Below are positions 58,089-61,240 of a stretch of 64,000 nucleotides of DNA, one piece after another. The translations under genes were made by a program, and so were the position numbers. How positions within the stretch are numbered: the first letter of the stretch is position 1; every line of letters begins with the position of its first letter. The stretch comes from Halococcus salsus (lineage in GTDB: Archaea; Halobacteriota; Halobacteria; Halobacteriales; Halococcaceae), in contig NZ_JAAAJC010000004.1 in assembly GCF_009900715.1 (NCBI RefSeq), positions 1-64,000 on the forward strand, written 5' to 3'. A model generated the notes under the pieces. The model did no database searches. It saw only the letters and a program-made list of their open reading frames with translations, and was not told the origin of the DNA.

Positions 58089-58286
58089 ATGGCATCGAAC
58101 GACGAGAGCGACGACCGGCAGCTCGCGGAGGACCGCCAACCCCGAACGGTGCTGTGCCAGCGTTGTAGCGAGGAGTTCGACTGGCACGAGGACGTCTGTC
58201 CGGCCTGCGGCTGGGAGAAGGACGAGTGGGTCGAGAGCGGTCGGTACGGCCTCGGCGGGTCCTACGGGATCGAAGGCTCCGGCTAG
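58089..58286 (+). CDS. Small zinc-ribbon protein
   Basis: The 65-residue protein has two Cys pairs (LCQRCSEEFDW and VCPACGWEKDEW) that should form one zinc ribbon, flanked by acidic and Gly-rich ends. Function unknown. Its 3' end overlaps the convergent DUF59-family gene by four bases. Confidence 0.75.
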   Translation: MASNDESDDRQLAEDRQPRTVLCQRCSEEFDWHEDVCPACGWEKDEWVESGRYGLGGSYGIEGSG

Positions 58287-59032
58287 TCGCGCTTCAGTTT
58301 TCGCGCCCGGTCGAGCCCCTCGCAGATGGTTCCCTGTCCGGAGATGGTCGCGCCCGTCAGCCGTGCCCGGCGCTGTTCGTGGGCGAGGTCGTCGGCCGCG
58401 ATCGGGTCCGCCTCGACGGTGGCGAAGAGCCGGTCGGTGGGTTCCCGGACCAGCCCGGTCTCGGCTGCCTTTTCGAGGTGGTCGGCGAGCGGGTCGGCCG
58501 GGACGCACACGGCGAAGGCGTCGTCGGCGAGGTAGACCAGCGCCTCGTCCGTTTCGTCCTCGAAGTCGACGTCCGCGCGGGTGAGGGCGACGACCTGGTC
58601 GGCGTCGAGCCCCGCATCGAGCAGCGCGTCGACGGCACGGTACTGGCGGCTCACGCGCGCCTTCTCCGCGAGGGTTCGACGGACCGCCTCGATGTCGTCC
58701 TCGGCGTCCTCGAAGACCGTCTCGAAGGCGAGGCGTTCGTTGACGCCACGGTTGATCTCCGTCGCGTGCATGTGGTCGTCGAGGGTGATCGTCGCGGTCG
58801 TCACGGTCGGAAGGGCTTCGAGCTCGTCGCGCGCGCCGGTCGCCATCATCCACGCGAACGCCGGCGAGCACCACGCCGTCGGCAACACGAGCGTTACCAG
58901 TACCTCCGACCCGTCGATCGTGAGGTCGTGGACGTACTCGAGGTCGACGATCGACTCGTCGAGCTCGGGGTCGTCGACCGCCGCGAGCCGCGCGCGGACG
59001 TCGTCGGCCGTCGGCTGGGCAGTGGCGGCCAT
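58283..59032 (-). CDS. DUF59 (MIP18)-family Fe-S/metal-assembly protein, monooxygenase-accessory type
   Basis: The 249-residue protein has a DUF59 domain at residues ~8-100 (DPELDESIVDLEYVHDL, LVTLVLPTAWCSPAFAWMMA, with a conserved Cys) and a ~150-residue C-terminal part absent from SufT-like proteins. The AWCSPAFAWMMA/GARDELEAL pattern resembles the DUF59 protein located beside an amidohydrolase in bacterial propane-monooxygenase clusters; I know this from the family, not a search. Its start overlaps the amidohydrolase stop by one base, so the two form an operon. Confidence 0.78.
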   Translation of the reverse strand: MAATAQPTADDVRARLAAVDDPELDESIVDLEYVHDLTIDGSEVLVTLVLPTAWCSPAFAWMMATGARDELEALPTVTTATITLDDHMHATEINRGVNERLAFETVFEDAEDDIEAVRRTLAEKARVSRQYRAVDALLDAGLDADQVVALTRADVDFEDETDEALVYLADDAFAVCVPADPLADHLEKAAETGLVREPTDRLFATVEADPIAADDLAHEQRRARLTGATISGQGTICEGLDRARKLKRD

Positions 59033-60084
59033 CAGTCTGCGGTGGCACCCCCGTACTGGTCCCCGAGGTCGAACTCGGCGCTGATGGCGTCGTCGGCCAG
59101 TTTTTTCTTCTGCTCCTCGATGTCGATATCGTAGAGCTCGGCGGCGTTCTCACCCATCACCTTCTGCTTGGTTTCGAGGTCGAACTCGAGGCCGTACTCG
59201 TCGCGCTGGTCCTCGGTGAGTTCGGCCTCCATCACGGCCTCGACCACCCACTCCGGTTCCCAGAGCGCGTAGTCGCTGCCGAAGAGGAGGTTGTCCTCGC
59301 CGACCCAGTAGAGGAGTTCGCCCATGATCTCGCCGAACTTCCGTGGTCGGGCCAGCGCCATCGGCGCGACCACTGCGAGGCCGCCGTAGACGTTGGTCTC
59401 CTGGGTGGCGATGTGGGCGAAGTCGTCGAACCGGGGGAAGCCGACGTGCTCGACGATGAAGTTGAGCTCGGGGAACGAGGTCGCGGCGTCGTCGACGTCC
59501 CGCACGTCGAAGGCGTCGCGGTTGAGCGGGCGGATCGTCGGCCCCTTGTGAGCGTGGATGTTCGTGATGCCGAGCTCGGCACACTTTTCGAGGTACTCGA
59601 AGGAGTCCTCCGAGTCGAGCCGCCAGCCCTTCGAGTCACCCCGCCACTCGGCGGTGTAGAGCTTGACCCCCGTGATGTCGTGTTCGTCCTTTTGTCGTTC
59701 GAGTTCTTCGAGCCCCGCCTCCCCTTCACGCGGGTCGAACCGGCCGTTGAGCACGAACCGACCCTCGTACGTCTCGGCGAGCCCCGCGTTGTCCTCGATG
59801 GTGTTGAACCCGTTCTCGTAGAACTCGCCGAGGTAGGTCGGTTGGAAGACCGCCATGTCGTCGTGGCCGTCCCGAAAGAGGTCCTCGACCATCCGTTCGG
59901 CGCTGTACTTCCGGTACTCGTCGATGCTCCACTGGCGCTCCGCCGGTGTGAACGCGGTGTGGTAGTCGTGGAAGCACTGGATGAACTGTTCGCCGCCCTC
60001 GTGGATGATGTTCTCCGTGCTCGCGTCCCAGTGGTGGACGTGGGCGTCGATGACGAAGACATCCGCTCCCTCGTGCCGGTACAT
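59032..60084 (-). CDS. Amidohydrolase-family (PF04909-type) protein, monooxygenase-accessory type
   Basis: A 350-residue TIM-barrel protein. The N-terminal VIDAHVHHWDAS gives the metal-binding His-x-His, followed by KLYTAEWRGDSKGWRLDSED, NIHAHKGPTIRPLNRDAFDV, EHVGFPRFDDF and LFGSDYALWEPEW (catalytic Asp). The stretch from KLYTAEWRGDSKGW through FDVRDVDDAA is very like the amidohydrolase encoded next to soluble di-iron monooxygenases (propane/mimABCD-type) in actinobacteria, as remembered from that family. There the protein helps produce an active hydroxylase. No monooxygenase gene is present in this window. ATG 60084; divergent from the ADH. Confidence 0.85.
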   Translation of the reverse strand: MYRHEGADVFVIDAHVHHWDASTENIIHEGGEQFIQCFHDYHTAFTPAERQWSIDEYRKYSAERMVEDLFRDGHDDMAVFQPTYLGEFYENGFNTIEDNAGLAETYEGRFVLNGRFDPREGEAGLEELERQKDEHDITGVKLYTAEWRGDSKGWRLDSEDSFEYLEKCAELGITNIHAHKGPTIRPLNRDAFDVRDVDDAATSFPELNFIVEHVGFPRFDDFAHIATQETNVYGGLAVVAPMALARPRKFGEIMGELLYWVGEDNLLFGSDYALWEPEWVVEAVMEAELTEDQRDEYGLEFDLETKQKVMGENAAELYDIDIEEQKKKLADDAISAEFDLGDQYGGATAD

Positions 60085-60140
60085 TGCACATCATCGATAG
60101 TGTTTGACAATCATACGTCTTTTGGCCCCGGAAAGCGGCT

Positions 60141-60158
60141 GTACCCCGATTTCGGTAC
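60141..60158. promoter_or_regulatory. Palindromic site between amidohydrolase and ADH genes
   Basis: GTACC and GGTAC form an inverted repeat (60141-60145 and 60154-60158) in the 115-base divergent gap. The ADH-side A/T box (acactttt, 60161-60168) is just downstream of it, about 35 bases before ATG 60200. The palindrome could bind a dimeric regulator of both transcripts. Confidence 0.35.
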
Positions 60159-60199
60159 GAACACTTTTGACCGTGACAGTCCTACCGCGGTGTGGTCAC

Positions 60200-61240
60200 A
60201 TGCAAGCAGCCAGACTCCACGAGTACACCGAGGAGATGGAGGACGCGCTCTCGATCGACGAGGTCGACGAACCGCAGGCCGAGGCCCCCGACGGCGTGGT
60301 CGTCGAGGTCGAGGGCGCGGGATGGTGCCAGACCGACAACCACGTGATCGAGGGCCAGTGGGCCGAGTACATGCCCCAGGACCTCCCGATGACCCTCGGC
60401 CACGAGAACGCCGGCCGGGTCGTCGAGGTCGGCGACGACGTCACGATGGTCGAGGAAGGCGACCCGGTGATCTGTCACACCGTGATGACCTGTGGGACGT
60501 GTCGCCCCTGCCGGCTCGGCGACGACATGCACTGTGAGGACCTCGCGTTCCCCGGCCTCTCGACGGACGGCGGCTTCGCCGACTACCTCCGGACGAACGA
60601 GCGGGCGGTGATCCCGCTCCCCGACGGCGTGAGCACCGTCGACATTGCACCCCACGCCGACGCGGGTATCACGGCCTACCACGCGGTCAAGCGCGCCTCG
60701 CGCGAACTCAACCCCGGCGACCACGCCGTCGTGATCGGGATCGGCGGGCTCGGCCACATCGGGCTCCAGTGTCTCGACGCGATGAGCCCCGTCACCATCA
60801 CCGCGGTCGACATGAAGGACGAGGCGCTCTCGATGGCCGACGACCTCGGCGCACACCACACGATCGACCCGGGGAACGAGGACGTCGCGAGCGAGATCGA
60901 GGCGATCACCGACGGCGTGGGCGCACGCTCGGTGCTCGACTTCGTCGGGGCGGACGAGACCACGGCACTGGCTCCCGAGATCGTCGCCGCCGGCGGCGCA
61001 CACACCGTCATCGGCTACGGTGGCCACGTCCACCAACCCTCCCAGGCGCTGGTCAACGGCGACTTCAGCTATCGGGGGAGCCTCGTCGGCAACTACACCG
61101 AACTCCAGGAACTCGTCGCGCTGGTCGAGCGCGGCGACGTCGACCTCCGGACCACGCGCTACGGGCTCGACGAGATCAACGACGTCGCGGCGAAGCTCGA
61201 ACACGGCGAGATCGAGGGACGGGCGGTCATCACGCCGTAA
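60200..61240 (+). CDS. Zinc-dependent alcohol dehydrogenase
   Basis: The 346-residue enzyme is a true zinc medium-chain dehydrogenase: catalytic ligands Cys43 (GWCQTDNHVI) and His68 (LGHENAG), structural-zinc Cys98, 101, 104 and 112 (CGTCRPCRLGDDMHC), and the NAD site VIGIGGLGHIGLQC. It would oxidise a small alcohol such as 2-propanol or another secondary alcohol with NAD. Its position opposite the amidohydrolase/DUF59 pair matches the order of bacterial propane-oxidation loci, where an ADH oxidises 2-propanol. Confidence 0.9.
   Translation: MQAARLHEYTEEMEDALSIDEVDEPQAEAPDGVVVEVEGAGWCQTDNHVIEGQWAEYMPQDLPMTLGHENAGRVVEVGDDVTMVEEGDPVICHTVMTCGTCRPCRLGDDMHCEDLAFPGLSTDGGFADYLRTNERAVIPLPDGVSTVDIAPHADAGITAYHAVKRASRELNPGDHAVVIGIGGLGHIGLQCLDAMSPVTITAVDMKDEALSMADDLGAHHTIDPGNEDVASEIEAITDGVGARSVLDFVGADETTALAPEIVAAGGAHTVIGYGGHVHQPSQALVNGDFSYRGSLVGNYTELQELVALVERGDVDLRTTRYGLDEINDVAAKLEHGEIEGRAVITP

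Follow-up and report, generated by a model that had tools for sequence, protein, structure and literature searches.

The prm and mim operons of Rhodococcus, Gordonia, Mycobacterium, Paraburkholderia and Paracoccus encode group V soluble di-iron monooxygenases (SDIMOs), the propane/acetone monooxygenases, together with accessory genes for an amidohydrolase, a DUF59 protein and often a zinc alcohol dehydrogenase. In actinobacteria this gene set lies downstream of prmABCD (PMC4428276), and published SDIMO clusters have an amidohydrolase and an iron-sulfur cluster assembly protein marked (PMC9213486). According to PMC7570240 (citing Furuya 2013), the MimG chaperonin is needed for active MimABCD in a foreign host; we found in the literature no report of MimABCD needing the amidohydrolase or the DUF59 protein, and no established role for their genes in these operons. 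Here we describe homologues of the three accessory genes in the haloarchaeon Halococcus salsus, within a window of 64,000 nucleotides (contig NZ_JAAAJC010000004.1, positions 1 to 64,000): an amidohydrolase (AMH) gene, a DUF59 gene and an alcohol dehydrogenase (ADH) gene. The locus is a stand-alone relative of SDIMO accessory genes and not an SDIMO operon, because hydroxylase and GroEL were both tested for and both are absent.

SDIMO hydroxylase alpha and beta subunits were searched for as PF02332 (Phenol_Hydrox). There are none in the H. salsus genome (assembly 95% complete), nor in any of the 32 genomes bearing the AMH-DUF59 module among 146 haloarchaeal genomes queried with both proteins. 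Of 50 sampled, named haloarchaeal genomes with the module, two have an SDIMO (Haloglomus and a Natronolimnohabitans), in both cases of the toluene-monooxygenase type and away from the module; the module-bearing genomes searched thus number 82, counting two sets that may overlap. This negative result is informative because the identical search finds an SDIMO in 8/8 AMH-bearing bacterial genomes (five, plus G201, G221 and G321); the search's own 14 control genomes gave no match. A MimG-like GroEL has no match at E<=1e-20 in this genome and a single fragment in the 146. The original prediction, made from the sequence alone, that hydroxylase and GroEL are missing is thus borne out genome-wide, and hydroxylase, reductase, coupling protein and GroEL are all missing from the module itself. 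Phenylacetyl-CoA epoxidase, another di-iron enzyme (PaaA/PaaC, PF05138), was found neither in this genome nor in nine other module genomes and is not associated with the module (22/32 vs 66/114, p 0.31). As candidate partners of AMH-DUF59, the SDIMO is ruled out by absence (32/32 and 48/50 module genomes lack it) and PaaABC by the lack of association.

The toluene-type SDIMO clusters of haloarchaea (L225 in Haloglomus halophilum, L226 in Natronolimnohabitans sp. A-GB9 and L160 in genome G129) hold alpha, beta, MmoB-like, Rieske and TmoB-like genes and are not beside the AMH-DUF59 module. L225 and L226 also have extradiol dioxygenase-like and aldolase genes, and in G129 beta and alpha are separated by a transposase. 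The haloarchaeal alpha subunit is 45% identical to the toluene-4-monooxygenase-type alpha of Thermomicrobium roseum and 25% identical to a Paraburkholderia PrmA-like protein.

Close relatives of AMH and DUF59 occur in an identical 32 of the 146 genomes (22%), and the other 114 have neither (Fisher p ~6e-33, uncorrected for relatedness); the two, expected to keep company in relatives, do so strictly. A scan of 84,980 species genomes added about 75 haloarchaeal loci, in nearly all of which AMH immediately precedes DUF59, usually with ADH divergent upstream. Across about 80 haloarchaeal neighbourhoods, AMH, DUF59 and ADH are the only widely recurring families (81, 75 and 72 loci), the next most frequent neighbour family reaching 23 loci; no third conserved neighbour of AMH-DUF59 was found there. 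ADH is present in 31/32 module genomes vs 30/114 module-less ones (p 1e-13, inflated by shared ancestry) and adjoins AMH in 27 of the 32. The ADH tree has linked and stand-alone copies from haloarchaea interleaved in one haloarchaeal clade, and the bacterial relatives include many without SDIMO linkage. Because of this interleaving and the copies in module-less genomes, the core is AMH-DUF59, with ADH a frequent companion. The earlier use of ADH as diagnostic of the set fails accordingly, since it belongs to a wider haloarchaeal family with many stand-alone members.

Two further matches were seen in the sample. In a congener, a second ADH copy adjoins a scrap of the DUF59 C-terminus (G005:C7:60775-62004), representing a decayed second module. 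A second DUF59-like match in G072 (L164) lies in AT-rich sequence, where neither a clear gene set nor a clear partner is evident.

All three predicted open reading frames (ORFs) are present at the expected place with Pfam matches (Table 1). The predicted coordinates stand overall, but ADH starts at ATG 60200, a start kept in relatives, rather than at 60104. AMH and DUF59 form a single operon with a 4-bp ATGA stop-start overlap, found in 51/79 loci, and ADH is transcribed away from them, unlike in bacterial operons. In 65 relatives the AMH/ADH spacer measures 95-332 bp, mostly <190. A shared operator there was considered and rejected, its k-mers resembling generic promoter elements and a clear palindrome being absent; a sigma-70 promoter scan gave no match, the sigma-70 model not being apt for archaea. 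The three genes are intact and under purifying selection, with dN/dS vs relatives of 0.05-0.15 (AMH), 0.13-0.38 (DUF59) and 0.08-0.22 (ADH). AMH identity is 66-96% across haloarchaeal families, and 93 positions are kept as far as bacteria. The nearest solved relative of ADH is 1h2b (348 bits).

Table 1. Coordinates of the locus within the window
Feature	Position	Strand	Remarks
DUF59 / FeS_assembly_P protein	58283-59032	-	249 aa, operon gene 2; PF01883 E 5.7e-14
Amidohydrolase-2 family protein (AMH)	59032-60084	-	350 aa, operon gene 1; PF04909 E 9.7e-43
Zinc-dependent NAD(P) alcohol dehydrogenase (ADH)	60200-61240	+	346 aa, divergent; PF08240, PF00107
Divergent intergenic region	60085-60199	.	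115 bp; probably holds both promoters
Small zinc-ribbon-like ORF	58090-58284		65 aa, CxxC...CxxC; convergent with DUF59 gene

The small zinc-ribbon-like ORF shares 2 bases with the DUF59 gene at the latter's 3′ end and has no match in a Pfam search. Directly downstream of ADH lies a gene for a DR2241/4Fe-4S-domain protein, with no apparent relation to the module.

A long branch with 100% support separates the family from other amidohydrolases in the AMH tree. The bacterial members form one clade (98/91) that excludes haloarchaea, and the haloarchaeal members are its sister group, the support for their monophyly being only 74/88. The predicted grouping of the H. salsus protein with SDIMO-linked amidohydrolases therefore holds at the level of the family (57% identity to SDIMO-linked AMH, with the 100% support above) but not of the clade, since it falls outside the bacterial SDIMO-linked one. 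Because the haloarchaeal AMH is sister to the bacterial clade and not within it, the tree indicates that the haloarchaeal genes are not a recent copy from a known prm/mim operon.

AMH is predicted to be an ACMSD-type TIM barrel with a metal set of H15, H17, H179, H213 and D271 (HxH, two His, Asp), and the invariant-residue alignment has all five ligands kept in haloarchaea. The top fold match of the model (pLDDT 88) is 3irs at Z 25.9, among the ACMSD-superfamily decarboxylases/hydrolases, while searches of PDB sequences with the single sequence and with a profile gave no match. Both motifs named in the original prediction, KLYTAEWRGDSKGW and AWCSPAFAWMMA, were found, and the Cys of the latter is C55 of the DUF59 protein, invariant from haloarchaea to bacteria. 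In Actinomycetospora on 2-HIBA, AMH makes up 3.2% of the proteome, beside 1.8% for MimA, 3.8% for MimC and 4.0% for MimG (PMC7176365); this amount is on a par with the hydroxylase subunits and more in keeping with an enzyme or structural component than with a chaperone present in traces.

The DUF59 protein scores 52.6 bits against PF01883 (cut-off 23.5), and its invariant residues are D21 P22 E23 L24 (the DPE motif), C55, H87, C237 and R244. The model (pLDDT 95) has two domains. The N-domain (about 1-105) resembles CIAO2B and SufT-type proteins (Z 10-12.5). The C-domain (about 120-235; window 58283-58675) has a predicted tyrosine-recombinase-like fold corresponding to the catalytic-domain part, matching Cre at Z 10.9 over 101 residues, Xer and lambda Int more weakly, and no competing fold. 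The match to tyrosine recombinases at the sequence level is weak (hhalign 46% over 24 residues; PF00589 E 0.17 in 1/34). The catalytic Arg I (GxR) and HxxR were not found in this domain, and the position of the G-R motif is taken by GLDADQ; the domain would accordingly be a tyrosine-recombinase fold reused without catalysis. None of the papers searched combines DUF59 and tyrosine recombinase.

Complete bacterial clusters with this content were recovered, upholding the view that the set is the one around propane/mim-type SDIMOs. In Paracoccus, Caballeronia, Aminobacter, Bradyrhizobium, Ponticoccus and Gemmobacter a four-component SDIMO is followed by AMH-DUF59 and then GroEL, with one or more ADHs near the pair. 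A survey of Pseudomonadota found AMH in only 4/249 genomes, three of them newly found and all with an SDIMO. Three bacteria have AMH-DUF59 without an adjacent SDIMO: Thermomicrobium roseum; Peribacillus (L154), with AMH-DUF59-DJ-1 (a DJ-1/PfpI gene) on a plasmid lacking an SDIMO; and Rhizobium sp. N324 (L158), with AMH-DUF59-gloA-2-hydroxyacid dehydrogenase, also on a plasmid lacking one.

We propose, with middling confidence, that AMH-DUF59 is a functional unit of its own, neither a leftover nor dependent on an SDIMO, in which AMH is a metalloenzyme, DUF59 its partner and ADH a pathway link. The proposal builds on the observed homology, strict co-occurrence, operon structure, selection, metal-ligand conservation, folds, and absence of SDIMO and GroEL; we infer from these both the pathway and the standing of AMH as client of DUF59. 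AMH would belong to the ACMSD branch of the amidohydrolase superfamily and be catalytically active with a mononuclear metal site, decarboxylating or hydrolysing a small oxygenated carbon compound or cleaving a C-C bond in it. The DUF59 protein, translated together with AMH, would be a partner dedicated to it, one that provides or carries Fe/Fe-S or some other metal; alternatively it might act as a scaffold via its recombinase-fold half. Because the haloarchaeal pair is usually head to head with a zinc ADH, the likeliest pathway would have this secondary-alcohol-type enzyme oxidise a small alcohol, yielding a ketone or ketol that AMH would convert further. The AMH substrate is plausibly a small ketone, ketol or oxo-acid tied to alcohol oxidation; chemistry of small alcohols, ketones or ketoaldehydes is suggested by the ADH genes near the pair and, in two bacteria, by the neighbouring DJ-1 and glyoxalase genes. 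Bacteria would have built the pair into their propane/acetone monooxygenase operons.

Several points weigh against this proposal. HxA replaces HxH in two bacterial AMHs, L154 (Peribacillus pA) and L183 (Rhodococcus sp. JS3073); their metal site may have been lost or altered, and a strictly catalytic role is less convincing for these two. No activity or substrate has been reported for any member of the AMH-DUF59 family, and AMH is a putative client of a protein whose DUF59 relatives usually serve other Fe-S clients. In 5/32 module genomes ADH is missing or unlinked, making the pathway link a loose one, and the absence of an SDIMO in Peribacillus and Rhizobium N324 refers to their plasmids.

Three other explanations bear on the same evidence. 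AMH and DUF59 could be maturation factors, which in haloarchaea would mature a different metalloenzyme encoded elsewhere; the bacterial pair is placed between the SDIMO genes and the MimG chaperonin, and the DUF59 domain has relatives among Fe-S assembly factors (PaaD a weak one) and a CIAO2B-like fold. We find this doubtful, as the client families searched, SDIMO and PaaA/PaaC, are respectively absent from the 32 module genomes and unassociated with the module, and no third conserved gene stands beside the pair as a candidate client. The original prediction had proposed, as one possibility, maturation of a different di-iron enzyme encoded elsewhere, and the results do not support it: an SDIMO occurs, non-adjacent, in only 2/82 module genomes, and phenylacetyl-CoA epoxidase is absent here. 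A metabolic metalloenzyme with its partner is favoured over SDIMO-specific maturation factors because selected pairs exist without an SDIMO, AMH is abundant and MimG is the factor reported as needed.

It is unlikely that AMH-DUF59 and ADH are functionally unrelated and merely share a divergent promoter region. The stand-alone ADHs of module-less genomes, their interleaving with linked copies in the tree and the AMHs lying away from ADH in 5/32 genomes would suit such a view, but ADH tracks the module and is mostly adjacent to it, Thermomicrobium has an independent DUF59-AMH-ADH arrangement, and several SDIMO operons have an ADH beside the pair. A propane/acetone monooxygenase operon that was lost and left these genes behind as a decaying remnant is very improbable. 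Their homology to accessory genes, the absence of all four other components and the decayed second copy in G005 are what a remnant might leave, yet dN/dS well below 1 for all three genes largely refutes it, and the conservation of AMH within haloarchaea and to bacteria, the intact pairs kept in 22% of genomes and a haloarchaeal AMH lineage not nested within SDIMO-linked bacteria all speak against decay.

Since the pair is retained in a lineage without the oxygenase, strictly linked and under selection, its function need not be oxygenase maturation, and haloarchaea are a cleaner system for finding the function of AMH-DUF59. Extending our proposal, we consider it possible, and put it forward tentatively, that AMH-DUF59 is a two-component metalloenzyme system working without a monooxygenase in haloarchaea and some bacteria, with a recombinase fold reused as accessory domain, and that it was secondarily recruited into propane/acetone monooxygenase operons; if so, the 'SDIMO accessory genes' would encode an independent catabolic step. 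The module may also reveal haloarchaeal use of small alcohols and ketones. Among open-access papers we found no description of the set in haloarchaea, as the original prediction had supposed, and nothing relevant on haloarchaeal use of propane, acetone or isopropanol.

Compared with known families, AMH shares its predicted fold and metal-ligand pattern with ACMSD, 5-carboxyvanillate and dihydroxybenzoate decarboxylases (PF04909; Z about 19-21), but is only 12-20% identical to them. The DUF59 protein shares its N-terminal domain, DPE motif and Cys with SufT, CIAO2B and PaaD, but has an extra C-domain and falls below every NCBIfam cut-off; it is weakly related to PaaD (NF041868, E 2.6e-6) and fails the PaaD cut-offs (NF041868, 27.5 bits vs 180; TIGR02159, 20.2 vs 108). 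The T. roseum plasmid has the same three genes as H. salsus with no adjacent SDIMO or GroEL, its only SDIMO being a separate toluene-4-monooxygenase-like cluster about 368 kb away; unlike in haloarchaea, all are on one strand, DUF59 precedes AMH and an IclR regulator is present. Relative to the prm/mim operons, the H. salsus module lacks the four other components and has ADH divergent, while AMH and DUF59 are adjacent in the same order, at 52-57% and 30-42% identity, and the zinc ADH often found there is 42-50% identical.

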